DNA of 35,701 bases from Gemmatimonadales bacterium (GTDB lineage Bacteria > Gemmatimonadota > Gemmatimonadetes > Gemmatimonadales > GWC2-71-9): the NCBI GenBank assembly GCA_036279355.1, contig DASUJH010000032.1, positions 1-35,701 on the forward strand, in the 5' to 3' direction. The position numbers were made by a program, and so were the translations under genes. How positions within the stretch are numbered: position 1 is the first letter of the stretch; each line of letters begins with the position of its first letter. Below are positions 11,265-33,802 of this stretch, in pieces. Below the pieces are notes generated by a model that saw only the letters and a list, made by a program, of their open reading frames with translations, did not search any database and was not told where the DNA came from.

Positions 11265-12125
11265 TCACATGGTATTCGAGACTCGAACCGACGGCCCGCC
11301 TGGTGGCATGCATTTCACGGACCCTGGAGCCGCGTCGGCGTCCGCTTCTTGACTCTGGGTGTCGCCTTCCCGTATCGCGAGTGCGGCGGCCAGCGCGAAA
11401 ACGACGGCTCCGGGGAACCACATGAGTGCGCCGGCCAGTCGCTGATCGGCGAGCGCGGACGACAGTGTCGCTCCGGGGATGTGCAGATACTGCGAGTAGA
11501 TCACGCTGCCGCGAAACATGATGACGGCGCCCAGGAGCGCGGACTGCGTCGCGCCTGCCAGCAGGTATCCCACGCGCGCGACGTTGCTGTGCAGCCGCCC
11601 GACAGCCGCCGGCGGCGCAAGGAGAGGCCACCAGTAGAGCAGGTAGCCGCCGACGAACCAGAGATGCTCGACCCCATGCACGATCGGGTTGGTGAGCGCG
11701 AGCCCGTAGAGTGGCGGTGCGTGCCAGGCCCAGAGCACCACCGTGGAGATCGCCCAGGCCAATGCCGGATGCGTGATGATGGCGAGCGGTCGCGACGGTG
11801 CCCGGCGCGGCCGCACGCTCTGCAGCAGGGGGAGCGCTCCCATGAGGAGGAGCGGAGCGACGATCCAGATGAGCAGATCATGCTCGATCATGTGCATGGA
11901 GAGCAGGCGCTCGTCGTTGGCGCCGATCGGCGACATGAGGGCAAACACGATGGCACCGAGCCCGCCCGTGAAGGCGGCGAGGAGTGCCCACGCGCGGCGC
12001 GTGCACCGTCTGCGCATCCCGCTGCCCACCCACACGGCAACGTAGCCCAGCTCGAGGAGAATGAGTGCGATGCCCAGCGGGGCTTCCCACTCCCACTCCC
12101 AGACGAAGGAAGCGGTGCCGGACAT
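11265..12125 (-). CDS. ctaG: CtaG-like cytochrome oxidase assembly/copper protein
   Basis: This 286-residue integral membrane protein (seven or so helices) is of the caa3_CtaG family, implicated in copper delivery or maturation of haem-copper oxidases. Typical features are the conserved SMHMIEHDLLIWIVAPLLLMG, WAWHAPPLY, GVEHLWFVGGYLLYWWPL and a late QYLHIPGA. The His-rich helices are the hallmark. The start is the ATG at 12125, 17 bp after subunit I. It is the last gene of the minus-strand operon subunit II - subunit I - ctaG, which supports a role in that enzyme's assembly. Confidence 0.88.
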   Translation of the reverse strand: MSGTASFVWEWEWEAPLGIALILLELGYVAVWVGSGMRRRCTRRAWALLAAFTGGLGAIVFALMSPIGANDERLLSMHMIEHDLLIWIVAPLLLMGALPLLQSVRPRRAPSRPLAIITHPALAWAISTVVLWAWHAPPLYGLALTNPIVHGVEHLWFVGGYLLYWWPLLAPPAAVGRLHSNVARVGYLLAGATQSALLGAVIMFRGSVIYSQYLHIPGATLSSALADQRLAGALMWFPGAVVFALAAALAIREGDTQSQEADADAAPGSVKCMPPGGPSVRVSNTM

Positions 12126-12142: not shown

Positions 12143-13666
12143 TCAGGACTCGAGGGTGGGGTCGTGCGTGCCGCGCCAGGCTGCCTTGAAGCGCGCCCCG
12201 ATATCCCAGCTCAGCCACGCGAGGCTCAGCGCGAGCAGCACGACGAACGGCACCGCGATGCGCGCGTATATCTGCCATTGTGCAAGGTGCACCGCGTAGC
12301 GGCGCGGCACACTGTTCGCGCCGGCCACGAAGAACATGAAGATGAACCCCGCGCCGCCAATCCCATACAGCCACGCCGCCATGCGGCTCGCCCGGGCGTC
12401 ACCTCGATTGCTGAGCGCTCGCACCAGATAGAAGAGATATCCCCATGCGAACGCGACGGCGCCGAGCAAGTAATAGGTATGGAAGTGCGCCGGCACCCAC
12501 ATGGTGTTGTGCATCACCTGGTTGACCGGGATCGTGGCGTCGAGCACCGCTCCCAAGCCGCCGAACACCCACCCCCATAGTCCGAGCGCCAGGAGGATCG
12601 GGGCGGCCGTCCAGCGTATGCCGGAGCGATAGATGAGGGCAAGCGCCCCGATGATGGTGACGATGAAAGATGGTAGAGCGACGGCGTAGGACGCGATCTC
12701 GGCCAAGAGCTGAAGGCCGATGGGTTGGGCGAAGTCCGCGTAGAGGTGGTGCGAGTAGTTGATCAGCATCAGGACGATGATGAGATCCCACGCGAACACG
12801 ACCGGCCACGTCGTCCGCCATGCGCGCCCGGTAAATGCCGGCAGCGCCGCATACACCAGCCCGGCCGTCACGTAAATGCTCAGATTCGCCATCGTGTGAC
12901 CGAAGAGCAGCACGGCGTTCTTGGCGAACAGCGCATTGACCGATCCCACGATGCCCGCCGCCTGCGCGAAGAGCGGGATCAGGTAGACGGCGCCGGCCGC
13001 CGCGGCCACGATCGAGTCGATCGAGATGACGGCGGCGATGAGCTCGGGCGGCCGCGGGAGCGCGTTCCGCTCGTCGCGTCCGCCGGAGAACAGATAGCGG
13101 AGCGCCAAGACCTTCGTCAGTCCGCCATGCGATCTGGCGAGCGCGTACAGCATGTGCGCGCTGAAGAGCAGCAGTCCGAGCGCAACGAAGAGATAGCCCG
13201 CGTACATGGCGAGGGCAGAGTCCATGGTCCACACGAAGCCGTGGGTGGGGAGTGGATAGAGGATTGTCCATCCAGCACCAAACCCTCCGACGAGTGTGGC
13301 GAGGTCGACGAAGCCGGTGCCCAGCAGGTAGACCACCAGCGCGATCCACAGCACGCGCGCACTCAACCGGGTCGTGGCGCTCACCGCCGCAGCAAGACCA
13401 CCCAACCCCGCGAGGAGTATCGAGGCGACCATGCCGGCTCCGTGCAGCGTCATGAGCCGATAGAACCACTCGGGGGGAATGACCATTAGGCCGCCCTGAT
13501 CGAGGCGCATGAGCAGTCCGAGCAGCCCCATCACCAGAAAGCCGCCGAGCCCCGCGACCATGTACGCCATCGAGGCGCGAAGCACCTCGCCATTGGCGCG
13601 GCGCGGAGCGAGCAGCGGCGTACCCGCTGTATACTCGTCCGCGAGGACTGCTCCCTGACCCCCCAC
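12143..13666 (-). CDS. Haem-copper oxidoreductase subunit I, B-type; likely NO reductase (NorS-like)
   Basis: This 507-residue multi-helix protein carries the haem-copper core. Low-spin haem ligand His75 is in MTLHGAGM and its partner His396 in VPAHFH. High-spin haem ligand His394 is in the same motif. The CuB-site histidines are His257 (FGHTMAN) and His306-His307 (NYSHHLYAD). In O2 reductases of A and B type the helix VI motif is HPxVY, whose Tyr is cross-linked to His. Here it is H-T-M-A-N, so Asn261 replaces Tyr. That loss is a mark of NO reductase-like members, and sNOR (NorSY of nitrifiers) is the closest architecture I can recall. The start is the GTG at 13666, 2 bp after the subunit II stop. 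The ATG at 13573 is an alternative. Confidence 0.88.
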   Translation of the reverse strand: MGGQGAVLADEYTAGTPLLAPRRANGEVLRASMAYMVAGLGGFLVMGLLGLLMRLDQGGLMVIPPEWFYRLMTLHGAGMVASILLAGLGGLAAAVSATTRLSARVLWIALVVYLLGTGFVDLATLVGGFGAGWTILYPLPTHGFVWTMDSALAMYAGYLFVALGLLLFSAHMLYALARSHGGLTKVLALRYLFSGGRDERNALPRPPELIAAVISIDSIVAAAAGAVYLIPLFAQAAGIVGSVNALFAKNAVLLFGHTMANLSIYVTAGLVYAALPAFTGRAWRTTWPVVFAWDLIIVLMLINYSHHLYADFAQPIGLQLLAEIASYAVALPSFIVTIIGALALIYRSGIRWTAAPILLALGLWGWVFGGLGAVLDATIPVNQVMHNTMWVPAHFHTYYLLGAVAFAWGYLFYLVRALSNRGDARASRMAAWLYGIGGAGFIFMFFVAGANSVPRRYAVHLAQWQIYARIAVPFVVLLALSLAWLSWDIGARFKAAWRGTHDPTLES

Positions 13667-13668
13667 GG

Positions 13669-14199
13669 TTACTGCTCCGCGACGGTGAAGGTGGTCGTCA
13701 TCATGTCGTGCGCGAGCCCGCAATATTCCAAGCAGCGCACGGTGTACGTCCCCGGCGCGGGAAACACGTAGACGAGGCGGTTGGTGTAGCCGGGCATGGC
13801 CTGCACTTGCGCGACCAGGCGACCTCGTGGGTCGTAGAGCCCGAAGTCGTGATTCACATCGCGCGCGCTGACAGCGAACTCGATGGGGACACCTTCTGGG
13901 ACCCGAGTGCGCGACAAGATCCAGCTCCATTGCGCCCCGGTGACCGCAACCGTGACCGGCGGCGGTCCGAGCTCCATGATGCGCGTCCCCTGATACGGGA
14001 GCCGACGCAGTGTCAGGATGAAGAGCACGATGGCGATGGCCGCGAAGCTCGTGAGCAGGACCAGCCGCACCCTGGCCTCCGACTTCTGGATGGTCTCGAC
14101 CGGCACCGCCCGCGGAGATCGAAGGAGCACCGTCGCCCAACCAGCTGTCCAGATGAGCCCCAAGGCGATCAGGACGGCGAGCACAACGTGTGGATTCAA
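13669..14199 (-). CDS. CuA-containing subunit II of the haem-copper enzyme (NorY/CoxB-like)
   Basis: This 176-residue protein has two N-terminal transmembrane helices (about residues 4-25 and 46-64) and a periplasmic cupredoxin domain. The binuclear CuA site is complete: His117 (DVNHDFG), Cys156, Glu158, Cys160, His164 and Met167 (CLEYCGLAHDMM). QWSW at 90-93 is the usual aromatic patch for electron entry. It takes electrons from a soluble cytochrome or cupredoxin and passes them to subunit I. The start is a TTG at 14199 that overlaps the preceding short ORF's stop as TTGA. A GTG five codons later is the alternative. Confidence 0.87.
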   Translation of the reverse strand: MNPHVVLAVLIALGLIWTAGWATVLLRSPRAVPVETIQKSEARVRLVLLTSFAAIAIVLFILTLRRLPYQGTRIMELGPPPVTVAVTGAQWSWILSRTRVPEGVPIEFAVSARDVNHDFGLYDPRGRLVAQVQAMPGYTNRLVYVFPAPGTYTVRCLEYCGLAHDMMTTTFTVAEQ

Positions 14200-14522: not shown

Positions 14523-14700
14523 GAAGAACGCAGCATCGGCAACGAGATCCGGGTCGACGATCTCAAGATCGCCCAGGAGCGCGCAGATCACGTGGACATC
14601 ATCTTCAATGCGAGGCATCCGGGCGTGGCGGTGCCGCACTACCATATTATGGTGGGGTATGTGTCGCTGGCGGATGCAGCCAAGCTGGCCAGTCCGCTGG
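14523..14700 (+). pseudogene. Possible gene fragment with no start codon
   Basis: After a stop at 14520 a coherent-looking frame reads GNEIRVDDLKIAQERADHVD, continues with IFNARHPGVAVPHYHIMVGY, and then degenerates into Pro/Arg-rich sequence before the AhpD-like gene. There is no ATG, GTG or TTG at its beginning other than the GTG at 14592 in the middle of the coherent part. I do not recognise the family. It could be a truncated gene or chance. Confidence 0.25.
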
Positions 14701-14807
14701 GTGGTGCGCCAGAACGTGCACACGACAACCGCGTGCCACCCGCGGAACGACCATCATCCGCTCAGGATCCCCCAGCGTGCGGCGGATCCGATTCAAGGAG
14801 AAGGAAC

Positions 14808-15293
14808 ATGATGAGCTCTGACACCCACGGCACCTCCACCATTCCCGCGACCGGCGAGCAACAGGCAAGCCCGCCAGCGTCGACGCATGAGCTGCTCTAC
14901 CCGCAAGCGACTCGGGAGCTCGCCGAGCAGCGAGCCCGTCTGGCCCCCGGGCCGGCCAAGGCCTTTCGAGCCTTCAGCCAGAGCGTGTTCACCGAGGGCG
15001 CCCTTCCTACGAAGACGAAGCAGCTGATCGCGGTGGCCGTCGCTCACGTGACCCAGTGCCCGTACTGCATCCGCAGCCATACTGGCGCGGCACTCAGGCA
15101 TGGAGGCACGGCCGAGGAGATCATGGAAGCCATCTGGGTCGCCGCGGAGATGCGCGCTGGCGGCGCGTACGCGCATTCGGCTCTGGCGCTGGATGTGATC
15201 GCCCGCGAGCAGGCGAAGCATGCGGCCGACATCGAGAACTCTGCCGGCACGCGGGGAGCGGGCATCGCATCGAGCATGGAGGAGGCGGGATGA
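14808..15293 (+). CDS. AhpD-like/carboxymuconolactone decarboxylase family protein
   Basis: This 161-residue protein has the AhpD-type redox motif Cys84-Pro-Tyr-Cys87 followed by His91 (CPYCIRSHTGAA), with the family helix TKQLIAVAVAHVTQ before it and AEEIMEAIWVAAEMRAGGAYAHS after it. Such proteins are thiol peroxidase or disulfide-reductase-like enzymes. The true substrate is unknown. The start is the ATG at 14808 with AAGGAG seven bases upstream. The stop overlaps the start of the GAPDH gene as ATGA, so the two are co-translated. Confidence 0.88.
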   Translation: MMSSDTHGTSTIPATGEQQASPPASTHELLYPQATRELAEQRARLAPGPAKAFRAFSQSVFTEGALPTKTKQLIAVAVAHVTQCPYCIRSHTGAALRHGGTAEEIMEAIWVAAEMRAGGAYAHSALALDVIAREQAKHAADIENSAGTRGAGIASSMEEAG

Positions 15294-16306
15294 GCACCAA
15301 CGTCGCCATCAACGGTCTCGGGCGAATTGGCCGCGCGATCCTCAAGCTGGTGATGGATGAGCCGTCGCTCGAGCTGGTCGCCGTCAATGACCTGGTTGAT
15401 GTCGAGAATCTCGCCTACCTGCTTCGCTACGACACGGTATATGGGCGGTACGCGAAGTCCGTGGCGGTCGCTGGAGATGACCTGATCGTCGCCGGCCGCA
15501 CGGTGCGGACGCTACGGAGCCGCGACCCGCTGGATCTCCCCTGGCGGGAGCTGGGAGTCGAGCTCGTATTCGAGTGCACGGGCGCGCTGACGCGGCGTGA
15601 GGATCTCGAGAAGCACATCCGCGCGGGCGCGCGGACCGTTCTCCTGTCGGCGCCATCGAAGGGTGGCGAGGTAGAGACGGTTGTCCATGGCGCGAACGCG
15701 CCGGACGGCAATCTCGCCATGTTCTCCTGCGCGAGCTGCACGACGAACTGCATTACGCCGATCATCGAGGTCATCGGTCGGCGCATCGGGATCGAGAAGG
15801 CGGTGATGACGACCGTGCATGCCTATACCGCGTCGCAGTCGCTCGTCGATGGACCGGGCAAGGGCCTGCGTCGTGGTCGGGCCGCCGCGGCGAACCTCAT
15901 TCCGGCCACGACGGGTGCAGCGCGCGCGACGACGCGCGCGCTGCCGCAGTACGCGGGGCTCTTCGACGGCGTCGCGATCCGGGCGCCGCTTCCCGTCGGG
16001 TCTCTCGCGGACATCACATTCATGACCTCGCGCAAGACCACCGTCGAGGAGGTGAACGAGATCCTCACGGGAGAAGCGCAAACGGAGCGCTACGCCGGAG
16101 TGCTCGGGGTGTCGCACGATCCACTCGTGTCATCGGACGTCATTGGCGACCCGCGCGCGTCCATCGTCGACCTCGAGCTCACGAGGGTGGTCGGCGGGGA
16201 TCTGGTCAAGGTCATGAGCTGGTACGACAACGAGTGGGGCTACGCGAACCAGATGCTCCGCGAGGCGCTGTCGGTGACGGCGGCAACCGGCACGCATGCG
16301 CGGTAG
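15290..16306 (+). CDS. gap: Glyceraldehyde-3-phosphate dehydrogenase, type I
   Basis: This 338-residue GAPDH has NAD-binding INGLGRIGR (residues 7-15), catalytic Cys150 in SCASCTTNC, His177 in TVHAYT and the C-terminal WYDNEWGY. VNDLVD at 32-37 keeps the Asp that normally selects NAD over NADP. It is translationally coupled to the upstream AhpD-like gene rather than to pgk or tpi, so it is probably a second, context-specific GAPDH. The start is the ATG at 15290 with GGAGG just before it. Confidence 0.95.
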   Translation: MSTNVAINGLGRIGRAILKLVMDEPSLELVAVNDLVDVENLAYLLRYDTVYGRYAKSVAVAGDDLIVAGRTVRTLRSRDPLDLPWRELGVELVFECTGALTRREDLEKHIRAGARTVLLSAPSKGGEVETVVHGANAPDGNLAMFSCASCTTNCITPIIEVIGRRIGIEKAVMTTVHAYTASQSLVDGPGKGLRRGRAAAANLIPATTGAARATTRALPQYAGLFDGVAIRAPLPVGSLADITFMTSRKTTVEEVNEILTGEAQTERYAGVLGVSHDPLVSSDVIGDPRASIVDLELTRVVGGDLVKVMSWYDNEWGYANQMLREALSVTAATGTHAR

Positions 16307-16571
16307 CGGCCGGGCGCCCGGGCTGCGTGGAGGAGCGAGATCGCCCCATCCCGGATGCGCGCGTACGAGGCGCTCGACAACGACCAGCCGCGGGAACGAG
16401 CGTCGTCGGAAGGAGGAGCTGCAAGGGGGCGACGCGCATCCTGCGGCCAGACTGCCGGCGGCATGCAGCCCCGCGCATCCCGAAGCCTGGGGTGGCGAGA
16501 CCTCACGCCGCAGCAGCAGGGCGAGGCCGATGCGTGCGGCGCCCACTGCCCACCGATCACGGAGGAGCGAC
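16307..16571 (+). other. Intergenic spacer with a palindromic hairpin
   Basis: Right after the GAPDH stop, CCGGGCGCCCGG (16310-16321) is a perfect 12-bp palindrome and a candidate terminator without a U-tract. The rest shows no supportable gene. GGAGGAG at 16561-16567 is the ribosome-binding site of the next gene. Confidence 0.4.
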
Positions 16572-17057
16572 ATGGACCAAGAACGGATCGCCTACACTCG
16601 CGTCGCGTCGGATGGGATCCGCGCCATGCTACAGCTGGAGGAGTATGTGAAACAGAGTGGACTCGAGCCGGGGCTGCTCGACCTGGTGAGGACTCGAGTG
16701 TCCGAGATCAACCGATGTGCGTACTGCATCGACATGCACACGAAGGACGCCCGGGCTCGGGGCGAGACGGAGCAGCGGCTCTACGAGCTCCCCGCCTGGC
16801 GCGAGACCCCGTTCTACAGTGATCGCGAGCGCGCGGCCCTCGCATGGGCGGAAGCGGTGACGGTACTCTCACAGAATTCGATTCCGAACGAGCTCTTTCA
16901 GCAGGCCCGCGGCCAGTTCAGTGAGAAGGAGTTGGTGGATCTGACCCTTGCCATCATCGCCATCAACAGCTGGAACCGCCTTGCCGTGCCCTTCCGCACA
17001 GTGCCCGGGACCTACAACCCGGCGCGGCATCATGGGCAGCAGCCCGTGCACCTGTAA
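16572..17057 (+). CDS. AhpD-like alkylhydroperoxidase family protein
   Basis: This 161-residue carboxymuconolactone decarboxylase fold protein has the active-site motif Cys49-Ala-Tyr-Cys52 with His56 (NRCAYCIDMHTKDAR). It is followed by the subfamily features LPAWRETPFYSDRERAALAWAEAVT and LTLAIIAINSWNRLAVPFR. It belongs to a different subfamily from the protein at 14808. It probably reduces peroxides with a thiol partner. GGAGGAG lies five bases before the ATG at 16572. A 7-bp hairpin follows the gene. Confidence 0.9.
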   Translation: MDQERIAYTRVASDGIRAMLQLEEYVKQSGLEPGLLDLVRTRVSEINRCAYCIDMHTKDARARGETEQRLYELPAWRETPFYSDRERAALAWAEAVTVLSQNSIPNELFQQARGQFSEKELVDLTLAIIAINSWNRLAVPFRTVPGTYNPARHHGQQPVHL

Positions 17058-30791: not shown

Positions 30792-31244
30792 CTACGGCCC
30801 CGGCCGCTCCTCCCGCGCGCGGGCGCCGGGCGAGCGGATCCGGGGCCAAAGGTTGTAGAAGAACACCGCAAGCCCCGCAATCTGGCCGATCCCGGCGAGC
30901 GCGACCGCCCAGCGCGCGCCCGCGCTGCCAACCGCTGTCCGCGTCACCTCGCCGAAGGCGCGCACCGCCGTGGACGCGGTCACGAGCCAGTAGGCCAACC
31001 CTGCGAGCTCGGGCCGGTAGCGCACGTCCTCCCGCGCCGGCCGCGGAAACATCCAGAGCGCCACCCCCATCACCATCATCAGCACGAACCCGACGAGCAG
31101 CAGGTGCGTGTGCGCGCTCACGAGATAGGGCGTCGGATACCGCCCGTAGAGCTCGCGGCGAACGATCATCCAGCCGCCGAGCAGGAGGCCCAGAAGGAGG
31201 AACACGATTGCGGTCTTGAGATAGCGGCGGACGAGCGGATTCAC
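30792..31244 (-). CDS. Small NorB/CcoN-like membrane protein (four helices)
   Basis: This protein of about 150 residues has four transmembrane helices. The second carries SAHTHLLLVGFVLMMVMGVALWMFPRP, which resembles the low-spin-haem helix of NorB and cbb3 subunit I. The catalytic half of those enzymes is absent, so it may be a b-haem protein or a structural relative. I favour the GTG at 31244, where similarity starts (NPLVRRYLKTAIVFLLLG) with GGGGAGG upstream. The ATG at 31304 adds 20 basic residues. A TATGAT box lies at 31325-31330. It is divergent from the cupredoxin-nos genes. Confidence 0.7.
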   Translation of the reverse strand: MNPLVRRYLKTAIVFLLLGLLLGGWMIVRRELYGRYPTPYLVSAHTHLLLVGFVLMMVMGVALWMFPRPAREDVRYRPELAGLAYWLVTASTAVRAFGEVTRTAVGSAGARWAVALAGIGQIAGLAVFFYNLWPRIRSPGARAREERPGP

Positions 31245-31324
31245 GGACGTTCCGAGCCTCCCCGGCCGGCGAGAAGTATGAAGAGACCTTCCTGCGCGCT
31301 TCATCGCCGTGTGTACCGGCGCGG

Positions 31325-31385: not shown

Positions 31386-31826
31386 ATGATGCCCCTGCAC
31401 CGGTCCCGAGTCATCCCGATGACCCTGGCAGTCCTCGCCGCCTGCGGCGGTCAAAGGCCGGCGGACGCCCCATCCGACACGCCCGCCGCGCCGGCGGCGG
31501 CGGCAGAGCCGGCGGCGGTGCCCACCGGCAAGGTGATCGAGGTGAAGGCGATCAGCGACGACCAGGGAAACTACTTCTCGCCGAAAGAGATCGAAGCCCA
31601 TCCGGGCGACCTGCTCCGGTTCACGCTGGTGAGCGGCGTGCACAACGTGCACTTCGCGGCCGAGAAGAATCCGGGCGCCGAGGGGCTGCCCCCCGCGAGC
31701 GAGATGCTGCAGCTCCCCGGCCAGACGCTCGACATCCCCGTCAACCTGAAGCCTGGCGAGTACCACTTTCAATGCGACCCGCACGCGGCGCTCGGCATGA
31801 CGGGCGAGCTCGAGGTCGAGGACTGA
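31386..31826 (+). CDS. Lipoprotein cupredoxin (plastocyanin/azurin-like)
   Basis: This 146-residue protein has a lipoprotein signal with lipobox LAAC (Cys20), an Ala/Pro linker (22-46) and a type 1 copper cupredoxin domain. The ligands are His86 (VHNVHF), Cys130, His133 and Met138 (CDPHAALGM), the plastocyanin C-x2-H-x4-M spacing. It would be tethered to the outside of the membrane as an electron carrier. It lies 14 bp before nosZ on the same strand. The likely partner is NosZ, which is an inference from position. Confidence 0.88.
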   Translation: MMPLHRSRVIPMTLAVLAACGGQRPADAPSDTPAAPAAAAEPAAVPTGKVIEVKAISDDQGNYFSPKEIEAHPGDLLRFTLVSGVHNVHFAAEKNPGAEGLPPASEMLQLPGQTLDIPVNLKPGEYHFQCDPHAALGMTGELEVED

Positions 31827-31840
31827 AAGGAGAGCGTCGT

Positions 31841-33802
31841 ATGTCCCGCGTCGCAGGATTGACCGTTGCGCTCGCCGTGGCCGGTCTGGCCGGCTGCGGC
31901 GGCATCAAGCCGGTTCCCCCGGGTCAGCACGCCATGGCGACGGCCGACGTCCGGAACGCCGCTCTCGCCACGTACATCAAGCCGGGTGATCTGGACACCT
32001 ACTATCTGTTCTACTCCGGCGGCCACTCCGGCCAGGTGTACGTGGCGGGCGTGCCGTCGATGCGCCATATCGCCACGATTCCGGTGTTCGCTCCCTATCC
32101 GGGCACCGGGTATGGGTACGACGAAGAGAGCCGGCGGATGCTCGGCGGCTTCACCTGGGGCGACGTGCACCATCCGGCGCTCTCCAAGACCGACGGCGAC
32201 TACGACGGGCGCTGGCTCTTCGTCAACGACAACGCGAACAACCGGATCGCGCGGATCGACCTGCGCGACTTCAAGACCCGGCAGATCCTCGGGCCCATCC
32301 CGAACACGATGGGCAATCACGGCTCGTCCATGGTCACCAACAACACGGAGTACGTGCTGGTCGCGACCCGATTCTCGGTGCCGTGGGCCTCGGAGTACGC
32401 GCCGCTCGAGGAGTACGCGACGAAGTTCCATGGCGCGGTTACCGGCATCAGGATCGACCCGAAGGACGGCACGATGAGCGTCGGGTGGCAGATCATGACG
32501 CCGCCGTTCGACTGGGACCTGGGCGCCACGGGCAAGGGCGCCTCCGACGGGTGGGCGTTCTGGACGTCGTACAACTCCGAGCGCGCCACCGGCAAACTGG
32601 AGCAGACCGCATCCCGCAAGGATCGGGACTACATCGCCGTGGTGAACTGGAAGGCGGCGGAGCAGGCGATGCGGGCCGGCAAGACCGCCCCGGTGGTCGG
32701 CGTCCCGATGATCGACCCGGCCAAGGTGCCCGGAGTCATGTATCTGCTGCCCTGCGGGAAGAGCCCGCACGGCGTGGATGTGGATCCGAGCGGCGACTAC
32801 GTCATCTGCTCCGGCAAGCTCCAGCCCACGTCGACGGTCTTTTCGTTCGCCCGGATCCGGGACGCCATCGCCCGGCGGGAGTTCAGCGGCAACGAAGACG
32901 GCATTCCGGTGATCCGGTACGAGTCGGCGCTGATGCTGGAGGTGCCGGTGGGCCTCGGTCCGCTGCACACCCAGTTCGACGGGAAGGGCTACGCCTACAC
33001 GTCGCTCTACGTCGAGAGCGCGATCGCCAAGTGGAAGCTCCCGCCCTACGCCCCGGGCGTCGATCCAAAGTCGCTCGTGGTGGACAAGATTCCGGTGCAG
33101 TTCAACGTCGGACACCTGGTGGTGGCCGGCGGGGATACGCGGCACCCCCAGGGCACTTACCTCGTCGCGATGAACAAGATGTCGAGGGGACGGCACCTCA
33201 ACGTCGGGCCCTCGATTCCGGAGAGCTCGCAGCTCATCGACATCACCGGCGAAAAGATGACGATGATCTACGAGGCGTACACCGATCCCGAGCCGCACTT
33301 CGCGCAGCTGGTACGCCGCGAGGTCCTCAAGCCGATCGAGTTCTACCCGAAGGAGGAGAGCCGCGATCCCAACGCGGTCTGGCAGCCGAAGGACGCGAAG
33401 GTGACGCGGAACGCCGCCACGCACACCGTCGAGGGGAAGGTGTACGCGATCCGGAGCTTCTACGAGCCCAGCCGCATCCAGGTGCAGGAGGGCGACACCG
33501 TGATCCTCCACATCACCAATGCGGAGCAGGAGCGGGATGAGATCCACGGATTCGGCATCACCGCGTTCGACCGGAACGTCGTGGTGGACCCCGGCGAGAC
33601 CAAGACGGTGAAGCTCGTCGCGCGGAAGTCCGGGGTGTACCCCTATTACTGCACCAACTTCTGCTCGGCGCTGCACCAGGAGATGCAGGGCTACCTCGAG
33701 GTGGTGCCGGCGGGGCGGATGATGGCGCTCTACACCGGCAACCAGGGTGAGATGCACGCGGCACCGCCGCGGGACCTGGCGGTGCAGGAGGAGACGCAAT
33801 GA
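31841..33802 (+). CDS. nosZ: Nitrous oxide reductase, clade II, lipoprotein type (NosZ)
   Basis: NosZ reduces N2O to N2 outside the cytoplasmic membrane. The 653-residue protein has a seven-bladed propeller holding CuZ, with ligands His110-His111 (DVHHP), His160 (GNHG), His310 (SPHG), His376 (GPLHTQF), His425 (GHL) and probably His486. The C-terminal cupredoxin CuA domain has His569 (EIHGF), Cys604, Cys608, His612 and Met615 (CTNFCSALHQEM). The leader is a short Sec lipoprotein signal with Cys19 (AGLAGC), not a Tat RR motif, which marks clade II. AAAGGAGAG precedes the ATG at 31841. The stop overlaps the next gene as ATGA. Confidence 0.97.
   Translation: MSRVAGLTVALAVAGLAGCGGIKPVPPGQHAMATADVRNAALATYIKPGDLDTYYLFYSGGHSGQVYVAGVPSMRHIATIPVFAPYPGTGYGYDEESRRMLGGFTWGDVHHPALSKTDGDYDGRWLFVNDNANNRIARIDLRDFKTRQILGPIPNTMGNHGSSMVTNNTEYVLVATRFSVPWASEYAPLEEYATKFHGAVTGIRIDPKDGTMSVGWQIMTPPFDWDLGATGKGASDGWAFWTSYNSERATGKLEQTASRKDRDYIAVVNWKAAEQAMRAGKTAPVVGVPMIDPAKVPGVMYLLPCGKSPHGVDVDPSGDYVICSGKLQPTSTVFSFARIRDAIARREFSGNEDGIPVIRYESALMLEVPVGLGPLHTQFDGKGYAYTSLYVESAIAKWKLPPYAPGVDPKSLVVDKIPVQFNVGHLVVAGGDTRHPQGTYLVAMNKMSRGRHLNVGPSIPESSQLIDITGEKMTMIYEAYTDPEPHFAQLVRREVLKPIEFYPKEESRDPNAVWQPKDAKVTRNAATHTVEGKVYAIRSFYEPSRIQVQEGDTVILHITNAEQERDEIHGFGITAFDRNVVVDPGETKTVKLVARKSGVYPYYCTNFCSALHQEMQGYLEVVPAGRMMALYTGNQGEMHAAPPRDLAVQEETQ

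Follow-up and report, generated by a model that had tools for sequence, protein, structure and literature searches.

The window (the whole stretch of 35,701 nucleotides that was analysed, from a Gemmatimonadales bacterium) contains a compact minus-strand cluster in the order subunit II (14199–13669), subunit I (13666–12143) and CtaG (12125–11265). The features of the cluster and its context are:

12143..13666, minus strand: subunit I, catalytic haem-copper subunit; 507 aa, GTG start at 13666, 12 predicted TM helices
12884..12898, minus strand: helix VI motif HTMAN in subunit I; CuB ligand His257 and, at the position of the cross-linked Tyr, Asn261
13669..14199, minus strand: subunit II with the CuA site and two N-terminal helices; COX2 (PF00116)
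11265..12125, minus strand: CtaG (Caa3_CtaG family), probable assembly factor, directly downstream; PF09678, E 1.5e-43
31772..33802, plus strand: clade II nosZ (N2O reductase), context; TIGR04246, 826 bits
to 35651: nosD-like gene after nosZ; NosD (PF05048)

The start codon of subunit II is uncertain, and TTG at 14199 was used. Subunit I matched COX1 in Pfam (PF00115, 147.5 bits). Neither subunit reached the cut-off of any NCBIfam oxidase model (69 vs. 671 bits). The automatic name carried by relatives is 'cbb3-type cytochrome c oxidase subunit I'. The AlphaFold2 model of subunit I had a mean pLDDT of 90 and 12 long helices; two rows from plasmid records were left out of the structure run.

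The search for FNR/NNR-like boxes gave two hits with one mismatch each, which is the chance level, and none upstream of the cluster. Promoter and terminator scans did not exceed the shuffles. At 14592–17057 (plus strand), the window also holds a glyceraldehyde-3-phosphate-dehydrogenase-like gene between two genes of the carboxymuconolactone-decarboxylase family. A gene of the latter family was also seen near the enzyme of one relative (locus L021).

Active-site residues and their conservation

The first-pass annotation had described a haem-copper enzyme with Asn in place of the cross-linked Tyr, and its residue positions were exact: His75, His257, His306, His307, His394 and His396 were all found in subunit I, as was Asn261. 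The helix VI motif HTMAN, claimed to replace HPxVY, was located at 12884–12898. The full CuA site claimed for subunit II was present as well (His117, Cys156, Cys160, His164 and Met167).

Relatives occurred in 13 of the 395 genomes of the phylum that were searched (the window's own among these 13), and a scan of a genome collection gave 80 further loci from many phyla. Anchors came from two named plasmids, one of Thermomicrobium roseum and one of Ruegeria pomeroyi. The Asn family was aligned with A-type, ba3-type and eNOR-like enzymes. In the column of Tyr237 of the Thermus thermophilus ba3 oxidase, Asn was found in 94 of 94 family rows, a few of them nearly identical to each other. The 41 oxidases had Tyr there, and the eight eNOR-like rows from Chloroflexota had Gln. 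Because of this invariance, Asn261 is, as judged from the alignment, a real feature of the family and neither a chance mutation nor a sequencing error.

A second residue was equally conserved. Tyr265, one helical turn past Asn261 on helix VI, was invariant (94/94), at a position with Leu or Met in ba3 and Ala in eNOR-like enzymes. The K-type path was partly retained: ba3 Tyr248 corresponds to Tyr272 (94/94), Thr312 to Thr337 (Thr in 92/94) and Thr302 to Ser326 (Ser in 82/94). Tyr244 of the ba3 path was lost, with Ala268 in the window enzyme. By alignment, no Tyr is supplied from helix VII as in cbb3; residue 300, at what we take to be the place of the cbb3 Tyr (six residues before the helix VII His pair), is Met.

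According to Table A4 of PMC8756737, Asn is the residue of sNOR and of CuA-NOR (bNOR), Gln that of eNOR, Asp that of gNOR and Glu that of cNOR/qNOR. The same table lists sNOR carriers with Asn, including Silicibacter. The window enzyme has neither the Glu of cNOR/qNOR nor the Asp of gNOR at the Tyr position; it has Asn261, together with a CuA subunit II. In one family member (locus L068), the CuB histidine of helix VI is replaced by Arg, with the Asn retained; an assembly error in this MAG is possible.

Tree placement and the link to CtaG

The careful tree was calculated with IQ-TREE after removal of the motif columns. The Asn family formed a single clade (100/100) on a long branch, with 1.8 changes per column to the others. 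The eNOR-like clade (100/99) was joined to the ba3 clade (100/98). A quick tree with more rows agreed. The careful tree put the window's subunit I outside the ba3 oxidases, which kept to their own clade, and apart from the eNOR-like enzymes.

The enzyme of R. pomeroyi DSS-3 (Silicibacter) fell inside the Asn family, in a different subclade from the window enzyme. Published lists give only the genus; the assignment of this particular gene as sNOR rests on its Asn and the adjacent genes. The window subclade (100/100) comprised Gemmatimonadota, Chloroflexota, Thermomicrobium, one Bacillota MAG and one Methanomicrobiales MAG. The two-helix hydrophobic N-terminal part of subunit II was found in 19 of the 21 subclade members scanned. 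The 'B-type' label of the first-pass annotation was not confirmed: the sequence search ranked ba3 first, but the best fold match was an A-type aa3 oxidase (Z 39) and the branch is long. The T. thermophilus ba3 oxidase was absent among the best 50 fold matches listed, though the folds may still be alike.

Other genomes of the phylum hold Asn-type enzymes from two more subclades (loci L013, L014, L016 and L017; L015 and L018). One of these two is the proteobacterial NorSY-like branch, and the phylum has at least three kinds of the enzyme. One Chloroflexota MAG (L024:2123–4367, minus strand) has an additional COX2 gene next to its Asn-type cluster, immediately upstream and on the other strand; behind this gene comes an ORF of the length expected for an oxidase subunit I.

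CtaG lay directly 3' of subunit I in 16 of 16 subclade loci, and the copper protein SCO/SenC in none of them (0/16). In the rest of the Asn family, SCO/SenC was found in 39 of 66 loci and CtaG in 0 of 66. For this contrast, Fisher's test gave p 2e-17, a value uncorrected for kinship and obtained with some loci shortened by contig ends. CtaG had been read in the first-pass annotation as a pointer to NorSY. The counts contradict this: the NorSY branch and its relatives belong to these 66 loci, of which 39 have SCO/SenC and none has CtaG. Since CtaG is constant in the subclade and absent elsewhere in the family, it marks a separate subclade. The CtaG proteins retain an HM-x2-H motif and further histidines, which could, by their sequence, bind metal.

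The remaining neighbours varied. Rrf2 regulators adjoined 12 of the 66 loci of the wider Asn family, and formate/nitrite transporters adjoined nine of these 66 and four of the 16 subclade loci (all four Thermomicrobium). Both kinds of neighbour agree with a connection to nitrogen oxides. No denitrification gene recurred in the subclade loci next to the three-gene core of subunit II, subunit I and CtaG.

Denitrification genes in the host and its phylum

The host MAG is 97.5% complete. Its COX1-family matches were three A-type oxidases (HPEVY or HPWVY), the Asn enzyme and a half-length protein of 170 residues. All full-length haem-copper enzymes other than the window enzyme carry the Tyr. A NirK-like protein is encoded outside the window (G000 contig C9:11124–11912, locus L104); its top PDB match was a copper nitrite reductase (3wi9, 1.3e-60), and its copper-ligand motifs aligned, with a score below the NCBIfam cut-off. 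This low-scoring NirK-like type is the only one in many Gemmatimonadota genomes. No narG was found in the host genome, and for NirS there was only a weak, partial match.

The distance of 18 kb given for nosZ was accurate: the clade II NosZ starts 17.6 kb from the subunit II start. With the clade II model, whose cut-off is 625 bits, it scored 826. NosZ proteins of the phylum mostly reached about 870–960 bits, and a small group near 815–845 bits may be a separate subtype.

Across the 395 genomes sampled from the phylum, 132 had NosZ, 127 the NirK-like protein and 56 both. All seven Gemmatimonadota genomes with the window subclade had the NirK-like protein (p 3e-4 vs. 127/395, shared ancestry ignored). 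Six of the seven had NosZ, and the same fraction had both (6/7, p 4e-5 vs. 56/395, shared ancestry ignored). For the 13 genomes of the phylum with any Asn-type enzyme, the count for NosZ was 12 (p 1e-5, shared ancestry ignored). In the six remaining Gemmatimonadota genomes of the subclade, the COX1-family matches were A-type oxidases, one cbb3, the half-length protein and the Asn enzyme, and no cNOR/qNOR was found in the seven genomes. The association was weaker outside Gemmatimonadota, with NosZ and the NirK-like protein each in three of the seven genomes tested. NosZ matches in the loci of two relatives were discarded as weak cupredoxin cross-matches.

The 170-aa protein (window 30792–31304, minus strand; also at L195 and L197) matches COX1 over its first third alone (PF00115 positions 3–146), and its gene is oriented divergently from nosZ. 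Closely similar small proteins are encoded directly next to the NirK-like gene in two further Gemmatimonadota genomes (G154 contig C83, where nosZ is also present, and G313 contig C18). The 170-aa protein is possibly a small haem protein with a link to nirK/nosZ.

Interpretation and comparison with known systems

The locus probably encodes an sNOR-type NO reductase with two subunits and a CuA site, from a CtaG-linked lineage. The sNOR type, put forward in the first-pass annotation, fits far better than an oxidase of the terminal kind: the Asn shows no variation in the family, and the clade stands apart from ba3 and eNOR-like enzymes with R. pomeroyi inside it. The genome evidence also argues for it. 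The NirK-like protein, NosZ and the lack of any other full-length Tyr-less haem-copper enzyme in the host, which leaves no other haem-copper NOR candidate, support a role in NO reduction. The window enzyme is most likely the otherwise missing step from NO to N2O in the denitrification of the host.

Electrons would enter the CuA site of subunit II from a periplasmic donor, probably a cytochrome c. Because of the ligand residues, they are expected to pass from CuA to the low-spin haem of subunit I (His75/His396) and on to the site formed by the high-spin haem (His394) and CuB (His257, His306 and His307). There, two NO would be joined and reduced to N2O. In oxidases, a cross-linked redox-active Tyr is the usual donor for O–O cleavage; a site without it would be suited to the two-electron reaction with NO. 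Protons would probably arrive by a reduced K-type path (Tyr265, Tyr272, Thr337 and Ser326) or from the periplasm, and Tyr265 may be part of this delivery. CtaG, whose association with the cluster was observed, would replace SCO/SenC as the linked assembly factor. Acting between the NirK-like protein and NosZ, the enzyme would close the route from nitrite via NO and N2O to N2.

Alternatively, the enzyme may be an O2 reductase of high affinity that needs no cross-linked Tyr, perhaps relying on Tyr265, and that reduces NO only as a side reaction. We consider this unlikely. It agrees with the invariance of Tyr265 where ba3 has Leu or Met, with the retention of all six haem-copper histidines, with the lack of narG in the host and with the induction of the Nitrosomonas europaea sNOR by O2 limitation, for which the authors propose a high-affinity oxidase (PMC6967387). 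However, a Tyr able to cross-link is absent both at the usual place and at residue 300, the host already has three A-type oxidases and the association with the NirK-like protein and NosZ is strong in the phylum. Moreover, bNOR, which also bears Asn, is a characterised NO reductase (PMC11388526, PMC3475470). An ordinary terminal oxidase that lost its Tyr by chance or sequencing error is extremely improbable: the automatic names of the relatives would suit it, but it is refuted by the conservation of the Asn in 94 rows from many phyla, and the separate clade without motif columns and the unmet NCBIfam oxidase cut-offs also speak against it.

The enzyme could also reduce NO for protection from NO made by others and not for the host's own respiratory denitrification. 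The missing narG, the varying neighbour genes of the cluster and the many carriers outside the phylum that lack the NirK-like protein or NosZ would be consistent with this. It is nevertheless quite improbable given the Gemmatimonadota carriers, among which the NirK-like protein is constant and NosZ nearly so (7/7 and 6/7). A bolder and rather unlikely proposal sees in the CtaG-linked Asn clade a haem-copper NO reductase of a distinct kind, assembled by a route of its own. Tyr265, Tyr272, Thr337 and Ser326 would then form a rerouted proton (or radical) path, and through it NO reduction would conserve energy or the site could reduce O2 as well.

The sNOR family itself is a known, proposed NOR family; the window branch stands out by a different assembly gene and by its clear place in Gemmatimonadota denitrification. 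No published description or assay of the CtaG-linked branch was found in the literature searched, and the tree of the main 2024 survey of NOR diversity may already include members. Genomes with nir and nosZ and without nor have been reported, with 13% of Gemmatimonadota included (PMC12569097). Because all seven Gemmatimonadota carriers have the NirK-like protein and no detected cNOR/qNOR, the Asn enzyme is a direct candidate for this missing nor step, masked by its annotation as 'cytochrome c oxidase'. If true, this changes which organisms count as makers or consumers of N2O. The exchange of SCO for CtaG offers a natural test of how the CuA and CuB sites of NO reductases are assembled, and the invariant Tyr265 is a testable site for the question of NO versus O2 in sNOR.

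Among known systems, sNOR (NorSY) was described for ammonia oxidizers and Silicibacter/Ruegeria pomeroyi (Hemp and Gennis 2008 and Stein 2007, cited in PMC8756737 and PMC3475470); according to the literature found, no sNOR has been purified and assayed so far (PMC11388526). The window enzyme shares with it the Asn for Tyr, the CuA subunit II, a common clade (100/100) and the core order subunit II – subunit I. It differs by an identity of about 36%, its own subclade (100/100), CtaG in place of SCO/SenC and the lack of an Rrf2 neighbour.

The type II CuA-NOR of Bacillus azotoformans and Geobacillus has Asn, a 12-helix subunit I and a two-helix subunit II (PMC3475470), and the window enzyme matches it in the Asn, the short 12-helix subunit I and the two N-terminal helices of subunit II, which speaks for the sNOR-type reading. 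By description, on which this comparison is based, the type II enzyme comes with SenC/SCO and a protein of 4–5 helices, whereas the window enzyme comes with CtaG. Asn for Tyr and a CuA subunit II are also shared with bNOR (qCuANOR type I, B. azotoformans), which has a 13-helix subunit I, a one-helix subunit II and a third peptide of 46 aa (PMC3475470). The two are told apart by architecture only (12 + two helices in the window enzyme vs. 13 + one). A bNOR reference was sought in plasmid searches, which returned ba3/bo3-type oxidases, a Thermus enzyme near nirS and others, none identified as bNOR.

Like eNOR, the window enzyme is a CuA-type NOR related to oxidases and lacks the Tyr; unlike eNOR, it has Asn and not Gln, and the eNOR-like clade is separate and joins the ba3 oxidases. 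The T. thermophilus ba3 oxidase was the top PDB match by single-protein sequence and has the same six histidines and CuA. It carries Tyr237 and Tyr244 where the window enzyme has Asn261 and Ala268, and the two belong to separate clades.
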